Origin: an uncultured Subdoligranulum sp.
GTDB lineage: Bacteria > Bacillota > Clostridia > Oscillospirales > Ruminococcaceae
Length of the DNA stretch: 33,798 nt
Direction: 5' to 3'
Assembly (NCBI GenBank): GCA_945830575.1
Contig: CALZZE010000027.1
Span: 1 to 33,798 of the forward strand
Shown here: positions 1 through 18,575 of the stretch, one piece after another
How positions within the stretch are numbered: position 1 is the first letter of the stretch
Layout of the letters: the number at the start of each line of letters is the position of its first letter
Made by a program: the position numbers and the translations under genes
The notes under the pieces: generated by a model
Told to the model about the DNA's origin: nothing
Seen by the model: only the letters and a program-made list of their open reading frames with translations
Databases searched by the model: none

Positions 1-1
1 C

Positions 2-1835: not shown

Positions 1836-1852
1836 AACTTTACTTCCTTTCT

Positions 1853-4006: not shown

Positions 4007-4248
4007 AATACTTTCTCTTTGATTGAGTATTTCTTTTCTGCAATCACAGTGACAGCACTCATAATGCCTTTCGTACTGACGGTATTCATCAGCGGGCGAC
4101 ATGGGGTATTAGCACCGCTCAGCGAATCAGATAAGACAAATAAAATATGTAGAAATTTATCAATTTTAGCATGCTGATAAATTTGCCTTGTACTATTTTT
4201 AAAAGATAATATCGATTAGTACCTTTTTGAATACAGTTTTTCATGATT
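4007..4248 (-). other. 5' leader of the nucleotide-sugar operon
   Basis: About 240 bases between the promoter at 4249-4277 and the truncated ugd start. It contains a perfect 10-bp inverted repeat, AAATTTATCA (4153-4162) with TGATAAATTT (4175-4184), and no convincing ORF. The repeat has no following T-run on the minus strand, so it is not a simple terminator. It could be an operator or an RNA hairpin in a long leader, as is common for polysaccharide operons; I do not recognise a named leader motif. Confidence 0.4.
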
Positions 4249-4277
4249 ATTATAACACAATCCGTATCGTATTGCAA
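4249..4277 (-). promoter_or_regulatory. Sigma-A promoter for the ugd-rfbA-rfbB region
   Basis: On the minus strand, TTGCAA (4272-4277) and TATAAT (4249-4254) are separated by exactly 17 bases. Transcription would start near 4242 and run through the truncated ugd copy into intact ugd, rfbA and rfbB. No stronger promoter was seen between here and ugd. Confidence 0.7.
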
Positions 4278-4588
4278 CAAGAAGAAGAGATGCTTCATGT
4301 GAAAGTAGCTGGAATCATCAAATTGATATATAAAAACATCCTTAACATTTTTATTTTGCTTTTATCAATGCTTCTTTTATTAGAAGGAAAACAAGCAAAT
4401 CACAGTCTTCCTCGCTGGAATGAACAAAATGATAGATCATCCATTACCAGTTTTTCAGTCTTCAGATGTAATTTCTGCGTACGCGTGTGTTTTCGTTTAC
4501 ACACAAAAATCCCCCTGATGTACGTTTTTCTACACCAGGGGGGATTTTTCTATTGTGTCAGTTCAATCTCGATGAAGTTTCAGGATAA
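4278..4588. other. Spacer between sugar operon promoter and element left end
   Basis: This stretch holds no credible gene. A plus-strand open frame through it (4227-4622) runs straight across the terminator at 4505-4552 and lacks family features. On the inferred pre-insertion chromosome this was the intergenic region downstream of guaA. Confidence 0.6.
4505..4552 (-). terminator. Strong hairpin terminator, probably the original guaA terminator
   Basis: A long GC-rich stem (CCCCCTGATGTA pairing with TACACCAGGGGGG) is flanked by A and T runs, so it works on the minus strand (TTTTT after the stem) and possibly on both. It lies 37 bases downstream of the stranded guaA-type stop codon at 4589-4591, which suggests it terminated guaA before the element inserted. 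Confidence 0.85.
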
Positions 4589-4601
4589 TCACTCCCACTC
4601 G
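4589..4601 (-). other. attL: displaced original guaA 3' end
   Basis: On the minus strand this reads CGAGTGGGAGTGA, which encodes the E-W-E-stop end found in most GuaA proteins. The present guaA instead ends CGAGTTTGAATGA (15222-15234). The two 13-mers share 10 positions including an uninterrupted CGAGT, the likely crossover. On the minus strand the bases CCACT-TGGCG-AGTGG around it form an inverted repeat, as expected for integrase core sites. Confidence 0.75.
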
Positions 4602-4703
4602 CCAAGTGGAAACGCTCTCTAAACTTTTTTGTATAGACCGTTTGATTCCATTTGGCTTAATTTGATACCTATTATCCCAATCCTATGGGGTATCCGACTT
4701 TCT

Positions 4704-4734
4704 GCTATCAAAAAGCTATCAGGGGATGCTATCA
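4704..4734. repeat. Left-end integrase arm-type sites (3 x GCTATCA)
   Basis: Three direct copies of GCTATCA begin at 4704, 4715 and 4728. The first two, 11 bases apart and preceded by TCT, match the pair at the right end (15135 and 15146). They lie about 100-135 bases inside the left end, where arm-binding sites of Tn916-type integrases are found. Confidence 0.6.
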
Positions 4735-4757
4735 ATAGCGGAAAGATTCCACCTGAG

Positions 4758-4985
4758 TTATCCTCGTGGAGGGAACGGATCATGCCCGTGAGAATCCTTG
4801 TCGCGGATTTCTCCATTTGGACGATGGATAACAAGCTCGGATTCCTGATTGCGGGAAATGCTCCGTGCAATTTTGATTGCTTCTGCTTGTGTCTGGGTTC
4901 TCGCTGTAGCGCGGGAGTTCCCTTCGCCTTTTACCTGCCACCCGCCATTGGGGTGCGGAGTTACGTGCTGATTTTTTCCTTTCAT
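4758..4985 (-). CDS. DUF2188 domain protein
   Basis: A 75-aa protein of the DUF2188 family, whose function is unknown. Family features are clear: the N-terminal HVTPHPNGGWQVKGEGNSRA, the TQAEAIKIAR helix, and the closing RDKDSHGHDPFPPRG. Nearly the whole protein is the domain. ATG 4985-4983 follows a GAAAGGATGATAGT ribosome site. It is the last gene before the element's left end and lies just after a terminator hairpin (5000-5036), so its expression depends on read-through or an unseen promoter. DUF2188 proteins are often found scattered in mobile DNA and near defence genes; any link to the restriction system here is inference from position. Confidence 0.9.
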   Translation of the reverse strand: MKGKNQHVTPHPNGGWQVKGEGNSRATARTQTQAEAIKIARSISRNQESELVIHRPNGEIRDKDSHGHDPFPPRG

Positions 4986-4999
4986 ACTATCATCCTTTC

Positions 5000-5036
5000 A
5001 AAAAATGAAAAGGATGAAACCGCCAACATCCTTTTT
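5000..5036 (-). terminator. Terminator between the 43-aa gene and DUF2188 gene
   Basis: On the minus strand AAAAGGATG pairs with CATCCTTTT around a TTGGCGGTTT loop and is followed by ATTTTTT. It comes directly after the 43-aa ORF and 15 bases before the DUF2188 start, so it could act as an attenuator for that gene. Confidence 0.7.
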
Positions 5037-5043
5037 GTGGTTG

Positions 5044-5175
5044 TTATTTTCGAGTTTTTACGGGAATGCAAAATGCTTTCAAGCCATACTGACTGGCGTA
5101 AATGCGCTTGCCATTTTTAAGCGTAATAAACGCAGTATAGATGTACTCTACGGCATCGTTATGAGTTTCTCTCAT
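5044..5175 (-). CDS. 43-aa small protein, function unknown
   Basis: A 43-codon ORF from ATG 5175-5173 to TAA 5046-5044. It has a very strong ribosome site (AAGGAGGTG, 8 bases before the ATG) and a terminator directly after the stop. The peptide begins MRETHNDAVEYIYTAFITLK and continues NGKRIYASQYGLKAF, a pattern of beta-like segments with several aromatic residues and a basic C-terminus. I do not recognise a named family. Its strong start signal and placement downstream of the 128-aa gene make it a credible expressed gene rather than a chance frame. Confidence 0.65.
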   Translation of the reverse strand: MRETHNDAVEYIYTAFITLKNGKRIYASQYGLKAFCIPVKTRK

Positions 5176-5228
5176 AAACACAGCACCTCCTTCAAACGGG
5201 ATTTTTCCGAAACGAATTTCGGATTCGC

Positions 5229-5257
5229 TTGAAAAAGGTAAACACAGCCGTTATACT
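5229..5257 (+). promoter_or_regulatory. Plus-strand promoter for a mini-transcript
   Basis: TTGAAA (5229-5234) and TATACT (5252-5257) are separated by exactly 17 bases on the plus strand, against the direction of all neighbouring genes. Initiation would fall near 5263-5266, almost on the ATG at 5267, and the transcript would end at the terminator at 5311-5348. Confidence 0.55.
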
Positions 5258-5266
5258 TAACTTGTC

Positions 5267-5338
5267 ATGGAGAAGTATAGGCGGTTTGACCGTATTTACT
5301 TTTCAAACTGGAGCTTATTCGAGCTGGAACTCGGATAA
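5267..5338 (+). CDS. Possible leaderless 23-aa peptide or small RNA
   Basis: From ATG 5267 a 23-codon frame reads MEKYRRFDRIYFSNWSLFEL and ends E-L-G-stop inside the terminator stem (TAA 5336-5338). It has no ribosome site and would start 1-4 bases after the predicted transcript start, so translation would be leaderless. The amphipathic, aromatic composition looks like a real peptide, but the same 85 bases could equally be a small RNA with no protein product. It is antisense to the spacer upstream of the 43-aa gene. I do not recognise a family. The promoter-ORF-terminator arrangement is seen in the sequence; expression is inference. Confidence 0.35.
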   Translation: MEKYRRFDRIYFSNWSLFELELG

Positions 5339-5348
5339 GCTCTTTTTT
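5311..5348 (+). terminator. Plus-strand rho-independent terminator
   Basis: A 13-bp stem, GAGCTTATTCGAG with CTCGGATAAGCTC, has one G-T wobble and a CTGGAA loop and is followed by six T's. The T-run is only on the plus-strand side, so it ends a plus-strand transcript. Confidence 0.85.
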
Positions 5349-5380
5349 ATGTCATACAGCCAAAGCTGTCGGACAGCGGA

Positions 5381-5767
5381 CTACTTCAATTCACTTGCCT
5401 GGGTAAGATCAAACAGCATGGCCTGATCTTCTTTAAGTAATACTCCATCAACTCGATAACCGCATTTAGATAAATCCCAATGCATGATCCCTTGAATTGT
5501 ATTAAGAAGATCGCGACCGTTCCAGCGCACAGAAAGTGCATTTGACTTCTTTTCCTTGTTATAAAAAGTCGCGGCGTTTGGGGTGTCTTGTGCGCATGGT
5601 TGTACGGCTATACGTTTTGTTTCTTCATCAATAAGGAGGCGAACATATTCCGGATATTCCAACTTCATTATGACTGACTTGTTGAAGGTCATGCCGTTGA
5701 TTGTTATCGAGACGTATGGTACACCTTCGTTGAAATTAAACGGTTTAAAATTTTCGAGAAGTGACAT
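5381..5767 (-). CDS. 128-aa conserved-looking protein of unknown function
   Basis: A 128-aa soluble protein starting at ATG 5767-5765 after a good ribosome site (AAAGGAGTGAGG). No signal peptide or membrane segment is visible. It contains the segments FNEGVPYVSITINGMTFNKS and VRWNGRDLLNTIQGIMHWD, which look like a compact alpha/beta domain, but I cannot name the family. It lies 133 bases after vsr and has its own promoter (5794-5822) with a perfect palindrome at the -35 box, so it is separately controlled from the restriction genes. Its position in the restriction-modification cargo suggests an accessory role, which is inference only. Confidence 0.8.
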   Translation of the reverse strand: MSLLENFKPFNFNEGVPYVSITINGMTFNKSVIMKLEYPEYVRLLIDEETKRIAVQPCAQDTPNAATFYNKEKKSNALSVRWNGRDLLNTIQGIMHWDLSKCGYRVDGVLLKEDQAMLFDLTQASELK

Positions 5768-5793
5768 TCTCGCCTCACTCCTTTCTGCAAAGC

Positions 5794-5832
5794 ATTATAG
5801 CACACTGTCAGAAATAATGCAACAATATTGTT
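5794..5832 (-). promoter_or_regulatory. Promoter of the 128-aa gene with palindromic operator
   Basis: On the minus strand TTGCAT (5817-5822) and TATAAT (5794-5799) are 17 bases apart. The perfect 12-bp palindrome AACAATATTGTT (5821-5832) overlaps the upstream edge of the -35 box and is a candidate repressor or activator site. Confidence 0.65.
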
Positions 5833-5900
5833 CCGATTCTTCACTCGATCTTGCTTCAAAAAAATCTTATCAAATTCAAATATGCGCTCGACATAGCTTC

Positions 5901-6356
5901 TTACATTATTTCTGTGTTCTTCTCGTTCGATTTTATAAAGAAAATGATCTTTGCGAGCGCACGTTCTTCTTCAATCTTGTCTCTCTGCATACGCCGAATT
6001 GCACATTCCCATACCGTTAAGAGCTTAATGCCACGCTCCAGCAATTCAGCTTTCACCACAGCATCCCGCTGGACGTTATCATCAAACTTCTTTTGCCAAA
6101 ACTCCACGCGGCTCTTTGGCGTATATGCGTATTTGCAGTCTGGGTGACGATGCCAGAAGCAACCGTTGACGAAAATCGCCGTATTGTATTTACGCAGAAA
6201 AATATCAGGATGCCCCGGAACAGACTTATCTGCAATCCGATAACGATAGCCCTGTGCAAAAAGCAGTTTCCGCAGATACACTTCGGGCTTTGTGTTTTTT
6301 GATCGTATCGCAGACATATTCTGACTGCGCTTTTCCGGAGAAACAATATCCGCCAT
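5901..6356 (-). CDS. vsr: Very short patch repair endonuclease (Vsr)
   Basis: Nicks next to the T of T:G mismatches formed when the 5-methylcytosine made by a C5 methyltransferase deaminates, and so limits C-to-T mutation at the methylated sites. The 151-aa protein starts at ATG 6356-6354, which overlaps the restriction-gene stop as TGATG, indicating translational coupling; an upstream in-frame extension would lie inside the restriction gene and is rejected. It begins MADIVSPEKRSQNMSAIRSK, the Vsr N-terminus. Catalytic Asp51 is in PGHPDIFL and His69 is in GCFWHRH. C66, H71, C74 and C118 (in TVWEC) fit the zinc site. Position 64 is Asn where E. coli has His, a common variant. It is a natural partner of a Dcm/EcoRII-type methylase. 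Confidence 0.95.
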   Translation of the reverse strand: MADIVSPEKRSQNMSAIRSKNTKPEVYLRKLLFAQGYRYRIADKSVPGHPDIFLRKYNTAIFVNGCFWHRHPDCKYAYTPKSRVEFWQKKFDDNVQRDAVVKAELLERGIKLLTVWECAIRRMQRDKIEEERALAKIIFFIKSNEKNTEIM

Positions 6357-7534
6357 CAGAGTCCTTCGACCTCGCGCACATAAGAAACGAACTTTGAAAG
6401 CGTCCATATTCTGTCCTGACGATCTGCGGGATAGGATGTAATGTATTGTCTGGGAACAACAAGAATAACATTCTCGCTCTGCATTTCGTCCATCTGTGCA
6501 GGGGAGATTCCCTGCTGGAGCGTACAGAGATATTTGGGCCTGTCACGCAAACGGTCGGCTTCATTGATAACCTGACGCCAACGATCCTTGCAGGTCGTTT
6601 TTGCAGCCAGAGAGATCAGCCTTTCTGTAGGGAAAGTCATATCATGATACGATGCCTGCGAAGGGAAGATAAAGTCCGGTTTCTTGTTGCCCTCTGTAAC
6701 AGCCTGTGCGGTGTATATGATTTCATTGCCGTCAAAGATTGCAGAAAGGTGATGCTCCAGACTCTTTCCCGCGCGGCTCTTTCTGCGGTTCAGAACCATA
6801 TTTGCCATCGTGATAAATTCGTCTACGGACGTAAATCCGCGTGCGATGGCATCTCCATATCGTGCGTGTTCAATCGCGCGGAAAAGTGCATACTCTGTAT
6901 TTGTCCAGTCGATGATCTTACGGTCAGGATTCGTGCGGATAAATTCAAGATGGTCATATACACGGTTCTGAATGTCACGAGCTGCTGCGGACATTTCTTC
7001 TGAGAGAGGAAAATCTACTGTCAGCCCTGCAATAAACTCCTGAATGGCAATCCGTTCCTGCGTTTCTTCCTGTACCCGCCCAGCATCAATCAACTGATTT
7101 GTTTCTGTTGGACTGATGCCGAATGCGTCAAGGAACTGGTCGATATCTTCTTCGGAATTCAGTACAAATGCCTGATAATCCTCAGCATCACATTTTGTAA
7201 ATACAAAAAGCGCCCCTGTATACTCCGGTCGCAGGAAAGGAAAACCGCGCCCGAAGTTTGTAATCCGATACTCGTTTCGTGTACCCTTTCCGTAGTAAAT
7301 AAACCGGGTATCTGTTTCAATACCGTCCTGCCATTTGACCTTTACCCATTTTTCCTTGTTCGTCCCCTTGATACCCGGTTCATCAAAAAGGATGGGGATT
7401 GACGGCTTTGAAATATAGATTCCCGCCTGATGCCCTCCAGTCAAGCCGGTATCATTTGCCGCAAGAAACTTGCAATAAGCTCTCTGACCGCTCAGAACAG
7501 CCTGTATTGCCTGAATTGCATATCCTTCTGGCAT
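6356..7534 (-). CDS. EcoRII-family type II restriction endonuclease
   Basis: Cuts unmethylated DNA, probably at a CCWGG or CCNGG-type site judging from the family and the partner methylase. The 392-aa protein matches the ~400-aa EcoRII architecture: an N-terminal effector-binding domain (about 1-170) and a C-terminal PD-(D/E)XK catalytic domain (about 180-390). The active-site residues are D287 in KKPDFIFPS, K312 in LAAKTTCKDRWRQ and R318. The D-to-K and K-to-R spacings of 25 and 6 equal those I recall for EcoRII (D299, K324, R330). The ATG lies directly after the methylase stop, and its own stop overlaps vsr. EcoRII needs two sites for efficient cutting; whether this homologue does is untested. 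Confidence 0.9.
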   Translation of the reverse strand: MPEGYAIQAIQAVLSGQRAYCKFLAANDTGLTGGHQAGIYISKPSIPILFDEPGIKGTNKEKWVKVKWQDGIETDTRFIYYGKGTRNEYRITNFGRGFPFLRPEYTGALFVFTKCDAEDYQAFVLNSEEDIDQFLDAFGISPTETNQLIDAGRVQEETQERIAIQEFIAGLTVDFPLSEEMSAAARDIQNRVYDHLEFIRTNPDRKIIDWTNTEYALFRAIEHARYGDAIARGFTSVDEFITMANMVLNRRKSRAGKSLEHHLSAIFDGNEIIYTAQAVTEGNKKPDFIFPSQASYHDMTFPTERLISLAAKTTCKDRWRQVINEADRLRDRPKYLCTLQQGISPAQMDEMQSENVILVVPRQYITSYPADRQDRIWTLSKFVSYVREVEGL

Positions 7535-8701
7535 TTATATCACCTTCCTCTGCGGAATATTGGGAAAAGCAATTTCGATTTGCGGATCAGTATCGAGTTG
7601 TTCCAGCTTTGCAACAATCAGCTTTGCGACATCGGACATAAGCGGAACAACAACGGAATTTCCAAACTGTCGATATGCCTGCGTATCCGAAACCGGGATT
7701 TTGAAGCTGTCGGGGAATCCCTGCAATCTTGCACACTCACGCGGCGTCAAACGACGTGGATTCTTTCCGCGCTGTTCGATCAGAATTTCAGAACCGTCTT
7801 TATAATAACGGGCGCTGATCGTTCTGGTCACTCCGTCCAAGGGGGCAATTCCGTAGCCAAAACCATTGCCTGCTTCACGGTGTTTTGCAGCATAGTTTTG
7901 AAGATAAATCCAGAGTTTATCTGAAAGCGTATACTTTTCGCTGACCTCTTTTTCAAGAATATCACGCACGACCGGCGGCTTCTTCAAAGGGTGCAGATCA
8001 AAAGAAAAACTGACATCCTCTCCATAGCGTTCTTTATCAAAGCCGACGATGACAATACGCTCTCTGTGCTGCGGTACATAGCCTTTTCCGTCAATGACCT
8101 GGAAGAATACTTTGTAGTTCAGCTCCCGCAGAGATTCCTGGATAATCTGAAAAGTTCTGCCTTTGTCATGGCTGCAAAGATTTTTGACATTCTCCAGCAT
8201 AAATGCTTTCGGACGCTTTGCTTTCAGGATGCGGCATACATCAAAGAAAAGTGTTCCCTGGGTCTTGTCCTCAAACCCGGTAGCACGACCCAAGCTGTTT
8301 TTCTTCGAAACCCCGGCGATTGAGAACGGCTGACAGGGGAATCCCGCTACAAGAATATCATGATCCGGGATGCTTTCAGCCTGAACCTTTGTAATATCAC
8401 CGTCCGGTTGCACACCAAAGTTTGCGTAATAGGTCTGCTGGCTGTACTTATTCCATTCGTTAGAATAAACACAGCACCCGCCGGCTGATTCGAATGCAAG
8501 TCGCATACCGCCAATACCTGCAAATAAATCAATAAAGGTGTACCCATTACGATTCTGCGAAGGTTCTTCCTTTGCCTTGACGAGCATTTGCCTGATTGCT
8601 ACAGACAGGCAGTCCTGCATGGACTGCCCACTTACTACAGAATAGTCGCTGAGTTCTTTATAAATATCATCATCTACGCGGATGTGAACCTGTTTTGCCA
8701 T
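7535..8701 (-). CDS. C5 cytosine DNA methyltransferase with RHH-like N-terminus
   Basis: Protects host DNA by methylating cytosine at the site cut by the neighbouring nuclease. The 388-aa protein has all main C5-MTase motifs: motif I FIDLFAGIGG (56-65), motif IV GFPCQPFS with catalytic Cys123, motif VI ENVKN (170-174), motif VIII QHRERI (211-216), motif IX RRLTPRECARLQGFP (316-330) and motif X QFGNSV (345-350). The target-recognition part contains VTRTISARYYKDGSEILI, characteristic of the Dcm/EcoRII/SsoII group. Residues 1-42 (MAKQVHIRVDDDIYKELSDY and on) resemble a ribbon-helix-helix DNA-binding domain. ATG 8701-8699 was chosen for its GGAGG site 8 bases upstream and because it begins this domain; longer frames lack a ribosome site. 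Repeats at its promoter suggest autoregulation. Confidence 0.93.
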   Translation of the reverse strand: MAKQVHIRVDDDIYKELSDYSVVSGQSMQDCLSVAIRQMLVKAKEEPSQNRNGYTFIDLFAGIGGMRLAFESAGGCCVYSNEWNKYSQQTYYANFGVQPDGDITKVQAESIPDHDILVAGFPCQPFSIAGVSKKNSLGRATGFEDKTQGTLFFDVCRILKAKRPKAFMLENVKNLCSHDKGRTFQIIQESLRELNYKVFFQVIDGKGYVPQHRERIVIVGFDKERYGEDVSFSFDLHPLKKPPVVRDILEKEVSEKYTLSDKLWIYLQNYAAKHREAGNGFGYGIAPLDGVTRTISARYYKDGSEILIEQRGKNPRRLTPRECARLQGFPDSFKIPVSDTQAYRQFGNSVVVPLMSDVAKLIVAKLEQLDTDPQIEIAFPNIPQRKVI

Positions 8702-8731
8702 TTTGTTTTCCTCCATCTGGGACAAGAACAA

Positions 8732-8813
8732 TACCTGATTTTTCCCCATTATAACACACCTCTCGTTTGAATTCAATATGATGGGGAAAGGTTATGTACC
8801 TGATTTTTCCCCA
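8732..8813. repeat. Operator-like repeats around the methylase promoter
   Basis: The 17-mer TACCTGATTTTTCCCCA occurs twice as a perfect direct repeat, at 8732-8748 (overlapping the -10 box and start) and 8797-8813 (upstream). A third, imperfect copy lies in inverted orientation at 8779-8798 (ATGGGGAAAGGTTATGTA on the plus strand). A DNA-binding N-terminal domain on the methylase makes these good candidates for autoregulatory sites. Confidence 0.7.
8748..8776 (-). promoter_or_regulatory. Promoter of the restriction-modification operon
   Basis: On the minus strand TTGAAT (8771-8776) and TATAAT (8748-8753) are separated by 17 bases. Transcription would begin near 8741, about 40 bases before the methylase ATG. 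The repeats listed at 8732-8813 bracket this promoter. Confidence 0.8.
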
Positions 8814-8825
8814 CATGGTTAATGA

Positions 8826-9122
8826 TCATTTTGCATTTCTCAACCGATTTGTATTTCCTTTGGCAAGCTCACTTGCTGCTTGCCGGCGCTCATCCGAATA
8901 CGGCGCGGTCAGACGGACGGCGAACCGCCTGCGGTCGATCTCGAAGGTCAGACCGCCCTGTTCATCATCGTCGGTCTGCCTGCACAGATTGGGATATGCC
9001 GCCGCATACTGTGCCAGCCGCTTTTTGAGCGCGGTATTGTGTGTCTGGATTTCAACGGTTTTGCTGGCTTCGTCAAAATAGATGCAGGTCGTTTTCTGCC
9101 TCTTAGTCAGTCCGGTTTTCAT
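8826..9122 (-). CDS. 98-aa protein of clostridial mobile elements, unknown function
   Basis: A 98-aa, charge-rich soluble protein starting at ATG 9122-9120 with a GGAGGCAAT ribosome site. It begins MKTGLTKRQKTTCIYFDEAS and contains QTHNTALKKRLAQYA and a DDDEQGGLTFEIDRRRF stretch. Proteins with this look are common as hypothetical cargo or backbone genes of clostridial mobilizable elements, but no function is known to me. It is the last gene of the integrase-relaxase block, lying between the relaxase and the restriction-modification promoter, and appears to belong to the element backbone rather than to the restriction cargo. Confidence 0.8.
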   Translation of the reverse strand: MKTGLTKRQKTTCIYFDEASKTVEIQTHNTALKKRLAQYAAAYPNLCRQTDDDEQGGLTFEIDRRRFAVRLTAPYSDERRQAASELAKGNTNRLRNAK

Positions 9123-9183
9123 ATTGCCTCCGTTTCTGCCTGTTCTGCAAAAACAGGCGCGTTTTCAAGATTTTTTGTCAGCT

Positions 9184-9291
9184 CTACACCTGCAAAAGCA
9201 GGGTGACTTTTGAATGGAGAGCGCCCAGATGATACCGCTGCTCGATCTGGACGCTCCCATTCGGTAAAATCCGTTTTTCGCAGCTCAACAC
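9184..9291 (-). CDS. Possible 35-aa ORF after the relaxase gene
   Basis: A GTG-initiated frame beginning 4 bases after the relaxase stop encodes 35 aa (VLSCEKRILPNGSVQIEQRY and on). The alternating hydrophobic pattern looks coding, but the ribosome site is weak. Part of it coincides with an inverted repeat (9219-9230 with 9245-9256, one mismatch), so it may instead be a structured spacer. Confidence 0.3.
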   Translation of the reverse strand: MLSCEKRILPNGSVQIEQRYHLGALHSKVTLLLQV

Positions 9292-9295
9292 GGTA

Positions 9296-10558
9296 TCAGC
9301 GGATATTGTCCCGCATCACCGTTTTTTCTCTGTGCGGGCGGAAGAAACGCCAGAGGTTATTGCGCTGGATCACATCCTCATAGCGTTGAACTTTCCCGCG
9401 AAGCTTTGCGTTTTCGCGTTCCAGATCCGATGTGCGGAGCTTGCTGCGAACGGATTTGTATTCAGAAAGTTCCTGCTTCAAACCGGCGATCTCTGCCTTG
9501 AGTTTTGCAATCAGCCTGTTTGCAGCGTCAAGAGTCTTTTGCAGTTTGGATTCCTTTTTCTCGGCTGCAACGTACTTTTTCGCAAGCGTAGACAGGTGTT
9601 CAAAATCCTCACGCTCCACGGCAATCTTGGTAGAGAAGGGAATGGGCTTCGATTCAATCTTTTCGATAGCCGCCACAGCGACCTGCTGATTCTGAATTTT
9701 CTCGATCTGCTTGCCGAGCGTCGCTACCTGCTGTTCCTGCTGGCGGTTCTGCTCTGTGAGTTCTGCCAGCCGTGCCTGCTCCTGCTGCACCTTGAACTGC
9801 GTCACCGTCAGGTGTTCCTCAGAGCTGCCGCGTTCGCCACGCTCCACATCGTCGTATCCGGCGTCGCGCATATACCGGAAGAAATCGTCCTGCAAAACGC
9901 TGTAGGACTTCTTGAGAACAGGCTTGCCCTTGGTGCTTAGAATCGGCTCACCGTTCTCGTCCAGCGTGGGCTTGGAATCCCACTTCTTACTCATGCTGAC
10001 CTGCTGGATTATCTCCTTGACCGTGCCGCGAAGCGTCTCATCCTTGCAGCGCTTCGACCACAGAATTTGTTTTTCCACGACGGGGAGGTAGACCACATGA
10101 AGGTGGTAGTGGTACACGTCCTGCCCCAGCGCGTCGGACATGGCGCGGTTGCGCTCGTCGGCGTGCATGACCGCCGAAAGGATGTACTGCTCACCGCCAA
10201 CGATTTTGATTGCAGCTTTGTAGGCATCGGCGTAGAATTGCTTTGCAAACTCATAGCCACCGTGGTTGAAGAAGTACGCGGAATTAACGTCGAAGATCAG
10301 CTCTCCGAACTTCTCGGCGTCTGCTTTCAGACCGCGCGTGGAAATCACGCCGTCGGAGCGCATCTGCTCGAACATCTCCTTATATCCGGCGGTTGGTGTT
10401 TTGAAATGGACATTGTATTGTGTCCGTTCAGGAACGATGTCCTGATTGACATACGACGATTTTTCGCGCTCATTATGCGCCTGTGCGTTGTCGATGTCTG
10501 TATCTTTCATTCTTGCGTTTCTTGCGCTGGTACGGTGAATACCGTCGCCTCTTGCCAT
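9296..10558 (-). CDS. MobV-family relaxase (plasmid recombination/mobilization enzyme)
   Basis: Nicks the element's oriT and pilots the strand during conjugative mobilization by a helper. The 420-aa protein has the Pre/Mob fold in its first ~220 residues, with the metal-binding histidine motif HYHLHVVYLPV (H150, H152, H154) and the N-terminal segment with NEREKSSYVNQDI. Residues ~255-400 are a long coiled coil rich in Q, E, K and L, common in MobV proteins and likely for dimerisation or partner contact. An oriT-like site lies about 75-120 bases upstream. It follows the RepA-like and 84-aa genes in the same direction. Family call is secure from the motif and layout; the exact nick chemistry is from family knowledge. 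Confidence 0.9.
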   Translation of the reverse strand: MARGDGIHRTSARNARMKDTDIDNAQAHNEREKSSYVNQDIVPERTQYNVHFKTPTAGYKEMFEQMRSDGVISTRGLKADAEKFGELIFDVNSAYFFNHGGYEFAKQFYADAYKAAIKIVGGEQYILSAVMHADERNRAMSDALGQDVYHYHLHVVYLPVVEKQILWSKRCKDETLRGTVKEIIQQVSMSKKWDSKPTLDENGEPILSTKGKPVLKKSYSVLQDDFFRYMRDAGYDDVERGERGSSEEHLTVTQFKVQQEQARLAELTEQNRQQEQQVATLGKQIEKIQNQQVAVAAIEKIESKPIPFSTKIAVEREDFEHLSTLAKKYVAAEKKESKLQKTLDAANRLIAKLKAEIAGLKQELSEYKSVRSKLRTSDLERENAKLRGKVQRYEDVIQRNNLWRFFRPHREKTVMRDNIR

Positions 10559-10624
10559 AGGCAGTTTACCTCCTGATTTCAGATTGTGCAGGACGGGGCA
10601 GCTTTCGGGGAGGCACTTCTGCGG

Positions 10625-10680
10625 AAGTGTAATAACCCACTATGATACTTTCATCCTGCGGCTGCAAAGTATCGTGGGCT
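10625..10680 (-). other. oriT-like site of MobV type
   Basis: On the minus strand TAGTGGGTTA (10633-10642) matches the pMV158-type nick region TAGTGTG/TTA except for one base. It is preceded by the inverted repeat AAAGTATCATAGTGGG (10636-10651) with CCCACGATACTTT (10666-10678), which differ by a 3-base bulge. The MobV gene starts about 75 bases downstream. The location and shape fit a MobV oriT; nicking is inferred. Confidence 0.7.
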
Positions 10681-10919
10681 CTCCGAGGGGGTATGCGGCT
10701 TCTGCGGAAGCCTCTGCCGGTTTTGCGGCTTGCAGTGTGGATACAAACCGCAAAAACCGGCGTGGTCAGCAGCTTATTTGCAGGTGTCCGCTGCGCATAA
10801 TCTTCTGCCCACATCCATCTCAAACTCTGCGGATTTTTTCGATGGGGACGGGGGATGCGCGGGGATAGCCGCCAATGCATTGCCTTGTCTGCCAGCCACA
10901 GGAGCGTGGCACGCTCCTG
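10681..10919. other. Noncoding region upstream of relaxase with hairpins
   Basis: Together with the oriT this makes about 360 bases without a gene. It contains a GCCGGTTTTGCGG / CCGCAAAAACCGGC inverted repeat (10716-10728 with 10748-10761) and a perfect 10-bp hairpin with a GGC loop (ACAGGAGCGT / ACGCTCCTGT, 10898-10920) abutting the end of the 84-aa gene. None has a T-run, so they are not simple terminators and may be part of the transfer origin. Confidence 0.5.
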
Positions 10920-11174
10920 TCACAGCTCCCACGGAGGAACAGTCCAGCGATAGCTCTGCGGAACGCCGCGCCGGTCAAGGTATTCCTGCCGCGCCTGTTC
11001 GCGTTCTTCCTCAGTGGGTGCCGTTTTGTAGCGGGAATAAAGCTGCCGGTTCAGCATGGCATCGAGCTTCTGTTCCAAGCCCTGACGGATTTCTTCTTCG
11101 CAATCGTCTTCGCCCCGCAGATGATACATGGCGAGGTCAAGAAACAGGTCATAGGGGATTTGAACGGCTTTCAT
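10920..11174 (-). CDS. 84-aa acidic protein of clostridial mobile elements
   Basis: An 84-aa soluble protein starting at ATG 11174-11172 after GGAAAGGAGCG. It begins MKAVQIPYDLFLDLAMYHLR and continues with helical, Glu/Arg-rich sequence including KTAPTEEEREQARQEYLDRR. No catalytic motif is visible. Proteins of this shape recur in clostridial integrative elements between the replication ATPase and the relaxase, but I know no function. A large inverted repeat lies directly upstream (11193-11265), so its translation may be affected by RNA structure. Confidence 0.75.
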   Translation of the reverse strand: MKAVQIPYDLFLDLAMYHLRGEDDCEEEIRQGLEQKLDAMLNRQLYSRYKTAPTEEEREQARQEYLDRRGVPQSYRWTVPPWEL

Positions 11175-11192
11175 TCTGTTTCGCTCCTTTCC

Positions 11193-11265
11193 GCGACGGT
11201 CGCAACGATTGCGACGGTTGTTTTGGCGGTATCAGATTTACCGTTGCAACCGTCGCAGCCGTCGC
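11193..11265. repeat. Large imperfect inverted repeat made of GCGACGG units
   Basis: Two 25-base arms (11193-11217 and 11241-11265) pair with about 20 of 25 positions around a 23-base loop. Each arm is itself built from GCGACGG/GCAACGG-type units, so the region has an iteron-like look. It sits between the RepA-like gene stop and the 84-aa gene. It may be a replication origin, an RNA hairpin controlling the 84-aa gene, or both. Confidence 0.55.
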
Positions 11266-11270
11266 GCGGC

Positions 11271-12443
11271 TTATTTGCTTTCAGTATCATAGGTCAGCGT
11301 GATACGCCGTCCTTCGTGCCGAACCCTGTTCTCATAGCGGACGCGGTATTCGTCCAGCAGCCTGCCAGACTTCACATTCAAATACTTACTCAGCGCATTT
11401 GCCGCCATGCCGATGTGAACGGCATCGGCAAGCTCGGAGGGCGAGCCTGTCCACACCGGTTGTTCTGCGGATAGCAATCTGGAAATGGCTTCCAGAACAT
11501 GATCGGGTGGATCTTTGTGCAGCTCGTTTTCCACCTTTTCGAGATTCCATATCTGCGTATCGGCGTCCTTTCTCAGATAGAGGATCTGATCCAGCTGGTC
11601 GCGCCCCACCACGTCGATAGTTGCCTCCAGCGCTGTGCGCTTTTTCTTCTGCATAAGCAGCGAACCGTCCGCGCAGCCGAGCAACCCTGTCGTACCGGAG
11701 ATCATTTCGAAGCTGTCACCGGCAGGCTGCTTGCGAGTGTGGTGGACGGTCAAAACGCAGATGCAGTGCTTGTCGGCAAACTGCTTGAGCCGACCGATGA
11801 TCTCATAATCGCTGGCGTAGCTGTACGCCTCGCCGCCGACTTCCCGGATTTTCTGCATGGTGTCAATGATAATGAGTCTGGTGTCGGGATGTTCCCGCAC
11901 GAAGTTCTCAAGCTGCTCGTCCAGCCCGTTTCCAATCTTGCCTGCCGCAGTTGCAAAGTGCAGCCGGTCGGTGTCGTTGACACCGTACATCATGAACATT
12001 CGACTCTGGATGCGCTGAAAATCATCTTCCAGAGCGAGGTACAGCACCGTGCCGGGCTGGACTTCGTAGCCCCACAGAGCTTTGCCCAAGCTGACATGAT
12101 AGGCGATCTGCGCCACCAGAAATGATTTGCCGATCTTCGGCGCGCCTGCGAGAATGTACGCGCCCGCGTAGAGCAAGCCGTCGATGATCGGCGGCCTGCT
12201 CTGATACGCGGTCTGGTACAGCTCTGTCATGGAGATCGTGTGCAGGTAATGCGGGTCTGTCAACCGCTGCATCCTACGGTAGATTTCGTCCAGACTTTCC
12301 GAGTTGTTTTGAAAATCACCGTTGATTTCTTCATCAAAAGCGGATATACTGTTCTCAGTTGAATTGTGAAGCGGCTGCCCATCATCTGCGCCAACAGATG
12401 TGTCCGGGGCGGTCGTTTTCTTTTTGCAGAGTTCATTCTCCAT
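11271..12443 (-). CDS. RepA-like AAA/RecA-fold ATPase (replicative helicase type)
   Basis: A 390-aa ATPase of the RecA-fold RepA/AAA_25 type, which drives DNA unwinding in plasmid and element replication. The Walker A motif GAPKIGKS is at about residues 100-107 and Walker B LIIID ends at Asp194. A sensor-like TVHHTRKQ segment follows. The C-terminal ~80 residues look like a winged-helix DNA-binding tail. Start chosen at ATG 12443-12441 because the AGGAGG site lies 9 bases upstream; ATG 12449 would leave only 3 bases. The gene overlaps the end of the MobC-like gene, implying coupling. With the relaxase nearby it probably supports replication of the excised circle; that role is inferred. Confidence 0.82.
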   Translation of the reverse strand: MENELCKKKTTAPDTSVGADDGQPLHNSTENSISAFDEEINGDFQNNSESLDEIYRRMQRLTDPHYLHTISMTELYQTAYQSRPPIIDGLLYAGAYILAGAPKIGKSFLVAQIAYHVSLGKALWGYEVQPGTVLYLALEDDFQRIQSRMFMMYGVNDTDRLHFATAAGKIGNGLDEQLENFVREHPDTRLIIIDTMQKIREVGGEAYSYASDYEIIGRLKQFADKHCICVLTVHHTRKQPAGDSFEMISGTTGLLGCADGSLLMQKKKRTALEATIDVVGRDQLDQILYLRKDADTQIWNLEKVENELHKDPPDHVLEAISRLLSAEQPVWTGSPSELADAVHIGMAANALSKYLNVKSGRLLDEYRVRYENRVRHEGRRITLTYDTESK

Positions 12444-12768
12444 AGGCATTTTCCTCCTTCATGCCGTCCATGATGGCGGCGATCATTTCAATCACATCCA
12501 GCAGTTCGTCGTTCACGCTGTCGCCCGCTTCAATGCGCCGCAGCTCATTCAGCACTGCGGCAAGCTGGTCGCGCAGTGCCTTGTAAACTCTCGGATTGCC
12601 CTGTACTACCACGTCTTTGCAGGTCAGGCGGCGGGTGATGTAGTCCTGCTTCGTCAGCCCGGAGAGTTTGACAAAGGTTTCGATTTGCATATCTTCCTCC
12701 GGTGATACCCGGAAGGCAACAGTCTTGTTGCGCCAGCGGTTGTGGTTGTCTCGATTTTTCAGTGACAT
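12433..12768 (-). CDS. MobC-like relaxosome accessory protein
   Basis: A 111-aa protein that probably helps the relaxase act at oriT. It has a basic N-terminus (MSLKNRDNHNRWRNKTVAFR) followed by a ribbon-helix-helix-like segment (VSPEEDMQIETFVKLSGLTK) and an acidic helical C-terminus, the pattern of MobC/plasmid mobilization proteins. It starts 2 bases after the integrase stop, with its ribosome site (AAAGGAG) inside the end of the integrase gene, and its 3' end overlaps the RepA-like start. The whole xis-int-mobC-repA set is therefore one tightly packed transcript. It could instead regulate element replication. Confidence 0.75.
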   Translation of the reverse strand: MSLKNRDNHNRWRNKTVAFRVSPEEDMQIETFVKLSGLTKQDYITRRLTCKDVVVQGNPRVYKALRDQLAAVLNELRRIEAGDSVNDELLDVIEMIAAIMDGMKEENAYGE

Positions 12769-12770
12769 TT

Positions 12771-13844
12771 TCAGTTGCTCCTTTCGACGTTCAATTTGTC
12801 CGCCATTTCCTTCTGAACGGTTGGGAACAGGTGTGCGTACCGGTAGGTGATCTCCACGCTTTCGTGCCCCACGCGATTGCCGATGGCAACGGCGGAATAG
12901 CCCATGTTGATAAGTAAGGAAACGTGGCTGTGCCTCAAATCGTGGATTCTGATTACCTTGACACCCGACGCCTTGCAGCCAAACGCCATGCCGCGCTTCA
13001 AGGTGTACTTGGTCAGGGGAAAGATACGGCTGTCCGGTTCCAGCCCGTAGAGCTGCTTGAAATAGTCCTGCATCTCGTCGCAGAGAAAATCTGGCATCTG
13101 GATCACGCGGTTGCTTTTCTTCGTTTTCGGCGTAGTGATAACGTCCTTGCCCTGTAGCCGCTGATAGGATTTATTGATGCGGAGCGTTTTCTTCTCAAAA
13201 TCAAAGTCCGCAGGGGTCAGCGCCAGCAGCTCGCCCTCACGAATGCCGCACCAGTACAGGATTTCAAACGCATAGTACAGCATGGGCTTATCCATCATGG
13301 CATCGATGAATTTGAGGTATTCCTCCTTCGTCCAAAACAGCATTTCCTTCGTCTGCTCGCTGCCCATATTCCCGGCCTTTGCAGCAGGATTGATCTGCAA
13401 GCCGTAATACTTGATGGCATGGTTGAAAATACAGCTCAGTTGGGTATGGACATTTTTGAGATAGTCCGGGGAATAACTTTCGCCGCTTGACTTGGTGTGC
13501 TGCCGTATCTCGTTCTGCCAGTCGATCACATCACGGGCGGTGATTTCCGAGAGCTTTCGTTTTTTGAAATACGGCAGAATCTTTGTGCGGATGATATGCT
13601 CCTTGCTGAGCCATGTGTTGAGCTTCAGCTTGGGTTTGACGTCCTTTTCGTAGAGCGCCACAAAGCTCTCGAAGCTCATATTGACATCAGCCTGCTTCTG
13701 CATCAGAAACTCGCGTTCCCATGCCTGAGCCTCTTTCTTGGTCGCAAAACCGCGCTTCAATTTCTGCTGGCGCTCACCGCGCCAGTCGGTATAGCGAAAC
13801 TGCACATACCATGAGCCGTTCTTCTTGTCCTTAAATGCCGCCAT
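12771..13844 (-). CDS. int: Tyrosine recombinase (integrase)
   Basis: Catalyses integration and excision of the element at the guaA 3' end. The 357-aa protein has an N-terminal arm-binding domain (MAAFKDKKNGSWYVQFRYTD, of the AP2-like type), a SAM-like core-binding domain (about 55-150), and the C-terminal catalytic domain. Catalytic residues are R202 (WCGIREGEL), K240 (TTPKTKKSNR), H301 and R304 (HDLRHSH), H327 (RVGHES) and Tyr336 (YRYAHL). ATG 13844-13842 begins the arm-binding domain and overlaps the 3' end of the excisionase gene; longer frames lack support. It resembles Tn916-type integrases. The gene sits near the right end, as usual for such elements. Confidence 0.94.
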   Translation of the reverse strand: MAAFKDKKNGSWYVQFRYTDWRGERQQKLKRGFATKKEAQAWEREFLMQKQADVNMSFESFVALYEKDVKPKLKLNTWLSKEHIIRTKILPYFKKRKLSEITARDVIDWQNEIRQHTKSSGESYSPDYLKNVHTQLSCIFNHAIKYYGLQINPAAKAGNMGSEQTKEMLFWTKEEYLKFIDAMMDKPMLYYAFEILYWCGIREGELLALTPADFDFEKKTLRINKSYQRLQGKDVITTPKTKKSNRVIQMPDFLCDEMQDYFKQLYGLEPDSRIFPLTKYTLKRGMAFGCKASGVKVIRIHDLRHSHVSLLINMGYSAVAIGNRVGHESVEITYRYAHLFPTVQKEMADKLNVERSN

Positions 13845-14046
13845 TCGATTCCCTTCTTTCCTTCGGTTCTCTCGTTCCGTAGAACTTCTCATGAAAGAAC
13901 TTGCGGTCGATCCTGCCTGCAATAGTGATGCAGCCAGTCTTTCGCAGCTCTTCGTTCAGCTCACGGATGAGCTTATACGCATACGGAACCGATACGCCAA
14001 GCTCTTCCGCAACTTCATTTACTCTCATAAAAATTTCTCCTGCCAT
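13831..14046 (-). CDS. Excisionase-like HTH protein
   Basis: A small basic protein of about 71 aa that probably bends DNA at the element ends and steers the integrase toward excision. It carries a winged-helix/MerR-like segment (NEVAEELGVSVPYAYKLIRE) followed by a basic tail with GRIDRKFFHEKFYG, typical of the Xis-like proteins paired with Tn916-type integrases. Start candidates are ATG 14046 (GGAAGG upstream) and ATG 14028 (AGGAG 8 bases upstream, giving MRVNEV); the latter is equally plausible. Its 3' end overlaps int by 14 bases, indicating co-translation. Confidence 0.8.
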   Translation of the reverse strand: MAGEIFMRVNEVAEELGVSVPYAYKLIRELNEELRKTGCITIAGRIDRKFFHEKFYGTREPKERRESNGGI

Positions 14047-14305
14047 AGGCAAAATACCTTCCTTTCCTGATTTGTGGTTGATTGCTTCGCCGTTCTATCC
14101 GCAGGACTCTGGCAGGCAACCCTTTTCGGTGCTGTGCCGTTTTCTTTTCTCCTTGGCACGCTCGTCTCATCGCGTGCTTCCCCGGAGAAAGTATCCCTTG
14201 GACGGTCATTCAGTTTGGCTCTTTTGGATTTCACACCCCTCTCACCTTACAACGGACATTTTTTCTGCATTTGTTGACTATCCTAATTGTAAAATTTCTA
14301 TGAAT

Positions 14306-14326
14306 TAAGCTAATATGCTTAGCTTA
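14306..14326. promoter_or_regulatory. Operator palindrome TAAGCTAA-5-TTAGCTTA
   Basis: A perfect 8-bp inverted repeat with a TATGC spacer overlaps the start of the minus-strand xis-int transcript, just downstream of its -10 box. It is a natural binding site for the divergently encoded XRE-type regulator, which would repress the mobility operon. Confidence 0.6.
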
Positions 14327-14331
14327 CAGCC

Positions 14332-14360
14332 ATTGTACTATACATATCGGTTTAAGTCAA
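14332..14360 (-). promoter_or_regulatory. Promoter of the xis-int-mob operon
   Basis: On the minus strand TTGACT (14355-14360) and TACAAT (14332-14337) are separated by 17 bases. The operator palindrome at 14306-14326 covers the expected start site. Confidence 0.7.
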
Positions 14361-14403
14361 GCCGGTTTGCAGGAAAATATTAAATAAATCTGCTTAGATT
14401 TTC

Positions 14404-14432
14404 TTGACGAAATTAAACATATCTGCTATACT
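14404..14432 (+). promoter_or_regulatory. Promoter of the XRE-type regulator
   Basis: TTGACG (14404-14409) and TATACT (14427-14432) are separated by 17 bases. Transcription would start near 14439, with a short leader before the AGGAG site and ATG 14469. Confidence 0.8.
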
Positions 14433-14468
14433 CGTTATCAAAGACAACCGACACAGGAGATGGCTATT

Positions 14469-14999
14469 ATGGCGATTGGTGAACGCATCCACTTTTTCCG
14501 CACGATGCGGGGCATGACGCAGAAATACCTTGGCATGGCGCTGGGTTTCCCGGAGAAATCCGCAGATGTCCGCCTTGCGCAGTACGAGAATGGTTCCAGA
14601 ACGCCCAAGGCGGATGTAACCGCTGCGCTGGCACAGGTGCTTGACGTTTCACCCAAGGCGCTGGACGTACCGGACATTGACTCCTATGTGGGGCTGATGC
14701 ACACGCTGTTCACGCTGGAAGACCGCTACGGTCTTGAGGTCTGCGAGTGTGAGGATGAGGTGCATCTGCGTGTTCATATCCATAAAGGACGCGACGCAGC
14801 GGAACTTCACAGAATGCTTACCGCATGGGGTGCAGTTGCCGCCAAGCTGAAAGCGGGGGAGATTACCAAAGAAGAATATGACCGCTGGCGCTACCGCTAC
14901 CCTGAACTTGACACCTCCGGTCAGTGGCACAAGATCACGCCGTCGCATGAGCTGAGTGACCTGCTTCTTGCCGACCTCAAAGAACACACCGAAGAATAA
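14469..14999 (+). CDS. XRE-family transcriptional regulator
   Basis: A 176-aa probable repressor of the element's mobility operon. The N-terminal HTH (about 5-60) has the XRE pattern: GERIHFFRTMRGMTQKYLG, then RLAQYENGSRTPK, followed by the LAQVLDVSPKAL helix. The C-terminal ~100 residues are a non-homologous effector-type domain with conserved-looking YELD and HELSDLLL segments. Start ATG 14469 has AGGAG 9 bases upstream; the earlier in-frame ATG 14460 abuts the ribosome site. It is the only main gene on the plus strand, divergent from xis, the usual arrangement for a repressor of integration genes, and ends in a strong terminator. Confidence 0.85.
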   Translation: MAIGERIHFFRTMRGMTQKYLGMALGFPEKSADVRLAQYENGSRTPKADVTAALAQVLDVSPKALDVPDIDSYVGLMHTLFTLEDRYGLEVCECEDEVHLRVHIHKGRDAAELHRMLTAWGAVAAKLKAGEITKEEYDRWRYRYPELDTSGQWHKITPSHELSDLLLADLKEHTEE

Positions 15000-15049
15000 A
15001 AAAAGGCTCTGCCGACCTTCTTTTACAGAAAGTCAGCAGAGCCTTTTTC
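15000..15049. terminator. Bidirectional terminator between regulator and guaA
   Basis: AAAAGGCTCTGC pairs with GCAGAGCCTTTT, with an inner GACCTTCT/AGAAAGTC stem. A T-run follows on both strands, so it ends the regulator transcript and, from the other side, can terminate guaA in place of its displaced original terminator. Confidence 0.85.
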
Positions 15050-15134
15050 GCTCTCAATATAGGATTGGATGCGACAGCAAACCTGCAAACCATTCGCTCG
15101 CCAAGTAAGAGCAAACAAAATGGCTTTGGTATCT

Positions 15135-15152
15135 GCTATCATTTTGCTATCA
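15135..15152. repeat. Right-end integrase arm-type sites (2 x GCTATCA)
   Basis: GCTATCA begins at 15135 and 15146, 11 bases apart, inside TCTGCTATCATTTTGCTATC. It matches the first two left-end copies in order, spacing and orientation and lies about 80-100 bases inside the right end. Confidence 0.6.
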
Positions 15153-15221
15153 AACAGGAAATGAGATTTTCAAAAAGTGAGTGTTTTCAAGGCTTTTCAG
15201 CCCACCATATTCACTTTTTTC

Positions 15222-15234
15222 TCATTCAAACTCG
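15222..15234 (-). other. attR: guaA 3' end supplied by the element
   Basis: On the minus strand CGAGTTTGAATGA encodes the last residues E-F-E and stop of the current guaA. It is the partner of CGAGTGGGAGTGA at 4589-4601, with the CGAGT crossover shared. The element therefore restores the guaA reading frame with a slightly altered C-terminus. Confidence 0.75.
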
Positions 15235-16766
15235 ATGGTTGCCGGCGGTTTGGTGGTGTAATCAAACATGACGCGGTTGATGTTTTTGACTTCGTTGACG
15301 ATGCGGTTCGCCGCCGTGGTGATGGTGGACTGAGGCAGCAGCGTCACTTCTGCAGTCATGAAATCGGTGGTAGTGACAGCCCTCAGCGCAATGGCGTAAT
15401 CGTAGGTGCGCTCATCTCCCATGACACCCACGCTGCGCATATTGGTCAGCGCCGCAAAATACTGGCTGGGACGCTGGTCAGTGGGCAGCTTGTCTACCTC
15501 TTCACGCCAAATGGCATCGGCATCCTGCACAATGGCCACTTTTTCCGGCGTCACATCTCCGATAATGCGAATGGCCAAGCCGGGGCCGGGGAACGGCTGA
15601 CGGGCCACCAGATATTCCGGCAGACCAAGCTCGCGGCCCGCCTGACGCACTTCGTCCTTGAACAGATCCCGCAGCGGTTCCACGATTTCCTTGAAATCCA
15701 CATGCTCCGGCAGTCCGCCCACGTTGTGGTGGCTCTTGATAGTGGCGGATTCGCCGCCAAGGCCGCTCTCCACCACGTCAGGATAGATGGTGCCCTGCGC
15801 CAGGAAATCCACCTTGCCAATCTTCTTGGCCTCTTCCTCAAAGACTCGGATGAACTCCTCGCCAATGATCTTGCGCTTGCGTTCCGGCTCGGATACGCCC
15901 GCCAACTTGGTATAGTAACGCTCACGGGCATCCACACAGATAAAATTGATGTCAAACTGGCCGCCCTGACCAAACACCTCGCAGACCTGTTCCCGCTCGT
16001 TCTTGCGCAGCAGACCGTGATCCACAAACACACAGGTCAGCTGCTTGCCGATGGCCTTGGCCAGCATGGCCGCGCAGACGCTGGAGTCCACACCGCCGGA
16101 CAGCGCGCACAGAACCTTGCCGTCCCCGATTTTCTCCCGCAATGCCTTGACGCTCTGCTCCACAAAGGAATCCATCTTCCACGTTCCCGTGCAGCCACAG
16201 ACCTTGTACACAAAATTGTGCAGTATCTGGGTGCCGTGCTCCGTGTGCAGAACTTCCGGGTGGAACTGCGTGCAGTATAGGCCGCGGGCCTTGTCCTGCG
16301 CAGCGGCTACAGGGCAGTTGGGGGTATGTGCCACAATTTCAAAGCCGGGAGCCGCCTGCTCAATATAATCGTTATGGCTCATCCAGCAGATGTTCTGGTC
16401 GGGCAGCGTGTCAAACAGGGGGCTGGCAGTATCCAAATCCACCAACGTTTTGCCATACTCCCGCTCGGGGGCTTTGGTCACATGGCCGCCCAGCTGGTGC
16501 ATCATCAGCTGGCTGCCGTAACAGATGCCCAGAATGGGCACACCCCAACTGTAAATTTCCGGGTCGATGGAGGGTGAATCCGGCAGATAGGCGCTGTTGG
16601 GGCCGCCGGTAAAGATAATGCCTTTGGGATTCTTGGCCTTGATTTTCGCAAGGTCGGTGCGGTAAGAATAAATCTCACAATAAACATTGCATTCACGGAC
16701 GCGGCGGGCAATCAGCTGGTTGTACTGGCCGCCGAAATCCAACACGATGACGGTTTCCTGCTGCAT
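15222..16766 (-). CDS. guaA: GMP synthase (glutamine-hydrolysing)
   Basis: Converts XMP to GMP using glutamine and ATP in purine synthesis. The 514-aa protein has a class I glutamine amidotransferase domain (Cys82 in GICYGSQL; His169 and Glu171 in FHPEVLH) and a PP-loop ATP pyrophosphatase domain (SGGVDSS at 223-229). The C-terminal dimerisation domain ends in [14 protein letters not shown] 16766-16764 follows AAAGGAG and begins at the conserved N-terminus; the longer upstream frame lacks support. Almost all GuaA proteins end in E-W-E; the E-F-E here is explained by the inserted element, which replaced the last codons. The enzyme is probably still functional because only one residue changes. 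Confidence 0.97.
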
Positions 16767-16798
16767 GAAGTGGCTCCTTTCCCTTTTCACTACCTTGT

Positions 16799-16827
16799 AG
16801 TATACCATATTTCCCGGAAAACAGCAA
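16799..16827 (-). promoter_or_regulatory. guaA promoter
   Basis: On the minus strand TTGCTG (16822-16827) and TATACT (16799-16804) are separated by 17 bases, placing the start about 25 bases before the ATG. No purine riboswitch structure is visible in this short leader. Confidence 0.75.
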
Positions 16828-16848
16828 GGCTGGAAGATACCTTAACGC

Positions 16849-17685: not shown

Positions 17686-17689
17686 TTTC

Positions 17690-18451: not shown

Positions 18452-18489
18452 TTTCTACTCACTCCCTGAGTATCATCATTCTTGTTCTT

Positions 18490-18518
18490 AGTATATCAAA
18501 GAATATCTCCTGTGACAA
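18490..18518 (-). promoter_or_regulatory. Promoter of the GNAT-hydrolase operon
   Basis: On the minus strand TTGTCA (18513-18518) and TATACT (18490-18495) are separated by 17 bases, just beyond the tuf terminator. Confidence 0.75.
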
Positions 18519-18521
18519 TAC

Positions 18522-18552: not shown

Positions 18553-18575
18553 GAAAAGTCATTTCTGACCGAAAA

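Follow-up and report, generated by a model that had tools for sequence, protein, structure and literature searches.

Known guaA islands and the locus studied here

GIsul2 and ICERspD18B are integrase-driven islands that occupy the 3' end of guaA in Gammaproteobacteria at an 8-bp core, GAGTGGGA, and are reported to yield circular forms (PMC9376610, PMC7775301). The Tn5801-like islands of Firmicutes also sit in the guaA 3' end; they are ~25 kb long, carry conjugation genes and tet(M), and are bounded by imperfect direct repeats of 11 bp (PMC4844618). Streptococcal integrative and mobilizable elements (IMEs) and integrative and conjugative elements (ICEs) specific for the guaA 3' end are on record as well, the IMEs having a mean size of 10 kb, and tandem accretion is reported for other sites (PMC5357655, PMC4701971). 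The use of guaA 3' ends for integration, the GAGTGGGA core, imperfect repeats and, elsewhere, tandem accretion of IMEs have all been published before (PMC4701971, PMC5357655, PMC4844618, PMC7775301, PMC9376610).

We analyzed a stretch of 33,798 nucleotides from an uncultured Subdoligranulum sp. (contig CALZZE010000027.1 of assembly GCA_945830575.1), hereafter referred to as the window. It contains guaA, the essential housekeeping gene for GMP synthase. A preliminary description of this DNA had proposed that a ~10.6-kb element introduced by a tyrosine recombinase has cut guaA off from its former downstream DNA. With good confidence we come to the same picture: the region from 4589 to ~15230 would be an IME lodged through tyrosine-integrase recombination in the guaA 3' end of a bacterium of the Gemmiger group. 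This confidence applies to the element, its site and its boundaries, not to the direction, that is, which partner contributed which of the two junction cores.

The window element resembles GIsul2 and ICERspD18B in that it sits in the 3' end of guaA at the same 8-bp core, which is present in the exact form at the distal end only; unlike theirs, its guaA-side core is GAGTTTGA. It also differs from them in its EcoRII-type cargo and its Gemmiger-group host, and its integrase has Arm-DNA-bind_4 and Phage_int_SAM_3 domains; PMC7775301 describes a P4-type integrase accompanied by AlpA. By analogy, the element appears to work like these islands, and we do not class it as a member. With the Tn5801-like islands it shares the guaA 3' end in Firmicutes and imperfect repeats at the ends; it differs in its smaller size (~10.6 kb), in having mobilization genes and in the lack of a resistance gene among the proteins scanned. 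The streptococcal guaA IMEs are similar in size and in guaA 3'-end specificity, and unlike in host and cargo. Among the matches listed in the open-access literature, no title dealt with elements at guaA in either Gemmiger or Faecalibacterium. Two minor points are new: a mixed pair of cores and a correction concerning the C-terminus of GuaA.

Boundaries of the element

The guaA gene (15222..16808, reverse strand) is a 528-aa open reading frame (ORF) with the 3' end ATC GAG TTT GAA TGA. Its relatives are at most 93% identical, the nearest named ones among the best 80 of 588 confirmed loci being Gemmiger formicilis strains (92%), and the genome of the window, which is 99.89% complete, yielded a single guaA match at E<=1e-60. 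When the window is read as its reverse complement, the end of this ORF represents the proximal junction, CGAGTTTGAATGA (15222..15234), with the core GAGTTTGA. A second guaA-like end in the same orientation, CGAGTGGGAGTGA (4589..4601), represents the distal junction, with the core GAGTGGGA. The two cores are thus unequal within the published 8-bp exchange core, and the residue encoded before the final E is F at guaA and W at the distal junction. A degenerate guaA-end pattern, scanned along the guaA-orientation strand of the window, matched the two junctions only. Beyond the element, and now far from guaA, there is a terminator-like site (4505..4552, reverse strand) with inverted arms at 4505-4522 and 4531-4548, forming on the guaA strand a 12-pair stem (4542-4511) followed by a T-rich tail. 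The E-F-E end, the E-W-E-stop copy and this terminator were all noted in the preliminary description, and our reading of them agrees with it. A second, strong and near-palindromic terminator-like site (15000..15048) is located inside the element, ~175 bp past guaA and before a convergent gene for a helix-turn-helix (HTH) protein.

Both ends are also marked by short arm-type direct repeats. The heptamer GCTATCA occurs twice at the proximal end (15135..15152, 11-bp spacing, 69 bp past the guaA stop) and three times at the distal end (4704..4734), and GCTATCA/TGATAGC is found in the 33.8-kb window at positions 4704, 4715, 4728, 15135 and 15146 only. Among random heptamers taken from the window, just 2 of 20,000 draws had at least five copies with none more than 200 bp from one of the two ends, and these draws may be GCTATCA itself. 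A strict arm-repeat detector (a 7-bp word repeated at a spacing of 11 bp, 57-69 bp past the guaA stop) was positive in 55 of 20,000 control windows. It replaced a laxer detector, dropped because it was positive in 439 of 2000 control windows and in 310 of 2000 shuffled ones. Arm words vary between elements at constant geometry (TGGCAAC, TTGATAC, TTGATAG, ATTGCAT, TGACTCC and TTTGGGC), and such variation at one geometry is possibly a specificity code.

Homologues of the left (distal) end are present in 22 of the 396 genomes of the family and those of the right end in 26, the genome of the window being counted in both cases. Of the 22 other left-end matches, 17 reach the core, and 5 are shorter and lie further inside. 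The expected position is occupied by GARTGGGA at 19 of these places and by the variant GAGTGGTA at one, and no core could be read at two; 9 of them contain a 7-bp word repeated exactly with 11-bp spacing. DNA outward of the core is not alike among these homologues. At the right end, a guaA-end-like core accompanies 18 of the 27 other matches. An independent record from human faeces, MT837327, shares the left end with the window (94% over 153 bases), and outward of its core lies the proximal end of another element, with TGGCAAC arms. The integrase, the confinement of GCTATCA to both ends and the left-end homologues that end at the core bear out the earlier proposal of a tyrosine-recombinase element bounded by two guaA-like ends.

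The proposed course of integration is as follows. At each end of the element, the TGATAGC arm repeats would serve as binding sites for the integrase, and strands would be exchanged in the 8-bp core GAGTNNGA, where guaA ends. The incoming element would restore the reading frame and bring the last wobble base, the stop codon and the new terminator at 15000-15048, leaving GuaA whole. The difference between the cores, F at guaA and W at the distal end, would mean that those of element and host were unlike before integration.

A search with the whole element as a query found no match among plasmids, and a distant plasmid search with the region 8800-12800 returned one record, which is the Subdoligranulum variabile locus L295 described below. 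In viral contigs, exact patterns for the distal flank and the left end had no match, the guaA query found one distant locus (75%) and the integrase query one distant locus (64% identity).

At ten loci (L033, L042, L047, L168, L172, L174, L180, L186, L187 and L295), two or more guaA-type cores are arranged in series. Together with the strict arm geometry at 15 of 23 guaA ends of the Gemmiger group, the window included, these serial elements suggest that guaA is a heavily used landing pad in this group. At L295 (OY725880.1, 49728-80360), the full-length guaA ends in E-F-E and carries no element; after it comes a split guaA copy that ends in E-W-E and bears the element series. In this series, a unit containing an integrase homologue and tet(W) is present in two copies, and there is a third integrase homologue.

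Gene content

A Pfam profile scan took in 10 proteins of the element. The tyrosine integrase (12771..13922, reverse strand, like the mobilization, ATPase and cargo genes below and the ORF at 5381..5767) has Arm-DNA-bind_4, Phage_int_SAM_3 and Phage_integrase domains, all three above the cut-off, and its relatives occur beside other guaA genes. It is followed by a NikA-like mobilization protein (12433..12768; PF21983, 3.8e-11), an AAA_25 ATPase (11271..12449; PF13481, 6.1e-29), which we take to be RepA-like, and a Mob_Pre relaxase (9296..10558; PF01076, 6e-32) whose NCBIfam MobV match is below its cut-off. The HTH regulator (14460..14999, forward strand) matched HTH_3 above the cut-off and HTH_19 and HTH_31 just below it; its homologues adjoin other guaA genes. 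The element thus combines its own site-specific recombinase with mobilization genes above the Pfam cut-offs and with attachment sites at both ends (the imperfect GAGTNNGA and the common arm heptamer), as expected for an IME. The scan revealed no full conjugation machinery, no resistance gene and no AlpA model among the 10 element proteins that it covered. The NikA-like protein and Mob_Pre would nick the element and mobilize it with the conjugation machinery of a helper.

The cargo is a predicted EcoRII-type restriction-modification (R-M) set. It consists of a Dcm-like C5-cytosine methyltransferase (7535..8776; PF00145, 2.7e-93; TIGR00675 above the cut-off; MTase_II in PADLOC), an adjoining EcoRII-type restriction endonuclease with both domains (6356..7534; EcoRII-C, 8.9e-63; EcoRII-N, 1.8e-28; EcoRII of PDB 1na6, 2.8e-68 over residues 18-384) and a Vsr mismatch endonuclease (5901..6407; PF03852, 1.1e-31; Vsr in PADLOC). 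Enzymes of the EcoRII type cleave or methylate the motif CCWGG. The clustering of an endonuclease having N- and C-terminal domains, a C5 methylase and Vsr is the same as in the EcoRII system of PDB 1na6; unlike that system, the set of the window rides on a guaA IME, which it probably protects or stabilizes. EcoRII homologues are found in 7 of the 396 family genomes, including that of the window. MT837327 has a nearly identical methylase (98.3%) and endonuclease (99.7%), in line with an R-M set that travels on a guaA IME.

The ORF at 5381..5767 has no family match in Pfam, PADLOC or NCBIfam and occupies a variable cargo slot, at which MT837327 differs. Locus L003 (1010-2868, compared with 4740-5996 of the window) has the same slot with other cargo, which, read by eye from the sequence, comprises an HTH protein with an HELVH motif and a short protein resembling a PIN-type toxin. 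There was no Pfam match for the protein encoded at 8826-9122 and no NCBIfam match for the ORFs 10566-10880 and 10920-11174.

C-terminal ends of GuaA among relatives

The genus-level search covered 35 genomes and matched guaA in 23 of them (E<=1e-60), and 23 ends could be read; for G001, in which the matched guaA fragment stops short, we used the end found at the beginning of contig C560, assumed to belong to the same gene. With the window counted, 19 of these ends have F, three W and one M as the penultimate residue, and all eight ends without arm repeats are E-F-E. Four of these arm-less ends (G019, G005, G027 and G030) may represent decayed elements. G. formicilis ATCC 27749 (L006) and L010 also end in E-F-E, and no integrase homologue was detected among their ORFs downstream of guaA. 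Because 19 of the 23 Gemmiger-group ends, including all the arm-less ones, are E-F-E, this end is ordinary in the group, and F needs no element to explain it. The idea that E-F-E is an odd residue marking the insertion is therefore rejected, and that aspect of the preliminary description is corrected here. Moreover, E-F-E ends at empty sites, which that description regarded as contrary to its reading, do occur at the genus level (L006, L010 and the eight arm-less ends), although not within the same species.

E-W-E had been considered a near-universal end of GuaA. It is common in other genera, but not in the Gemmiger group. Full-length guaA genes end with F in 7/7 genomes of genus g50 and 3/3 of g33, and with W in the two g118 and four g99 genomes read; g88 has W in two of three and W-L in the third, and five g105 genomes have L or M. 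Elements are present at many guaA sites of the other genera examined. Elsewhere in the family, E-W-E ends were found in 28 of the 396 genomes, a count that is not a frequency, since the search pattern demanded CCCC downstream.

Origin of the two cores

We compared 135 distinct guaA junctions from all the loci fetched, 75 of them with arm repeats; among these 75, 57 pairs shared the same proximal end type. In this comparison, which is made on pairs that depend on one another and without correction for host ancestry, the last wobble base plus stop (positions 9-12 of the core) agree in 88% of the 57 same-type pairs versus 26% of the 2718 others. Since agreement is so much higher within a type, the last wobble base and stop appear to go with the element, which probably supplied them together with the new 3' flank of guaA. 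To this extent the proposal of a replacement end provided by the element stands, but it does not extend to the F residue, given that arm-less ends of the genus are F throughout. The W/F codon lies within the 8-bp core GAGTGGGA, and, judging from its position there, it can derive from either partner, which makes the element an equally possible source of W. CGAGT, named in the preliminary description as the crossover point, is a narrower placement than our data support. An earlier suggestion from right-end matches that the penultimate residue follows the host was withdrawn, as the wider count ties this residue to the proximal element type as well. On balance, we lean slightly towards a W-core element having entered an F-ended host, in which guaA would originally have ended in GAGTTTGARTGATTATCC, because the genus is mostly F and left-end homologues elsewhere have W.

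Several observations weigh against the reading as an IME lodged in guaA. The proximal and distal cores mismatch at 3 of 12 positions, the empty sites compared are at the genus level, with none from the same species, and 9 of the 27 other right-end matches, mostly short ones, lack a guaA-end-like core. Exact patterns of the empty-site and circle type had no match in viral contigs. As regards direction, the W/F/M/L class agrees in 89% of the 57 same-type pairs versus 41% of the 2718 others (six same-type pairs being discordant), which fits the opposite polarity too, and W at guaA is accompanied by arm repeats in three genomes (G007, G025 and G031), so that elements can also put W on guaA.

The opposite polarity is that of the preliminary description: a host guaA ending in E-W-E (GAGTGGGAGTGATTATCC) stood directly before the 4505-4588 flank, and the F core came from the element. 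We consider it rather doubtful, yet a serious competitor. W does occur at guaA in 3 of the 23 Gemmiger-group genomes, agreement within a proximal element type exceeds background for the W/F class as well as for core positions 9-12, and the terminator lies near the distal flank, as it would at a native gene end. However, F is found at every one of the eight guaA ends of the genus that lack arm repeats, and all three W cases adjoin such repeats, of which the distal flank of the window has none. A layered history overlaps both directions: an earlier guaA insertion would have decayed before the present element arrived, with a degenerate third end at 4558-4574 as the older native end. This sequence, CATCGAGATTGAACTGA, is located just before the terminator, and the stretch around it outscored all 3000 control stretches in alignment to the guaA end; elements in series are known from several guaA loci. 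Against this, the third end was noticed after the fact, no arm repeat is found within 200 bases outward of the distal core, and the interval from 4589 to the terminator has no integrase-sized ORF; we therefore regard such a history as unlikely.

It might also be argued that a second, split copy of guaA once lay beside the gene and was deleted by recombination between the cores, its end being the W core. In L178, L188 and L295, the full-length gene does have a split copy ending in E-W-E behind it, and in the latter two the elements are at the split copy. Yet the genome of the window has one guaA match, and a second copy was seen in only one (G032) of the 23 genus genomes matched, making this scenario very improbable. 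We give hardly any credence to mere coincidence, that is, to two guaA-like ends in a region that is not one element: the inequality of the cores at 3 of 12 positions would fit it, but the arm heptamer is confined to both ends, and left-end homologues elsewhere stop at the same core.

The unequal pair of junctions offers a handle on the position of strand exchange and on crossing between hosts with different gene ends. It is conceivable, although we hold this idea only tentatively, that the W/F mismatch is a fossil of transfer between clades, and that tolerance of core mismatches lets landings swap the penultimate codon of GuaA, shuffling W, F, M and L among Firmicutes. The mixed junction pair of the window would then be the record of one such cross-clade swap.

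Surroundings of the element

G+C content is 0.494 within the element (4590-15230), 0.58 on the guaA side (15231-33798) and 0.464 on the distal side (1-4500). A 10-bp direct repeat, CTCGCCAAGT, is found at 4598-4607, in the distal core, and at 15098-15107, ~115-125 bp inside the proximal end; its occurrence is possibly due to chance. The terminator stretch 4501-4556 shows 76-78% likeness to stretches in three genomes (G012, contig C22; G021, contig C75; G022, contig C69), and in G012 and G022 guaA is on contigs other than those with this stretch. As for the stretch at 1-3919, contig C22 of the same genome has a second copy of ugd (76% for the gene) with part of the DNA upstream of it, and rmlB/rmlA are on contig C26. 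Where rmlB and guaA share a contig (G004, G008, G012 and G027), they are at least ~17 kb apart.

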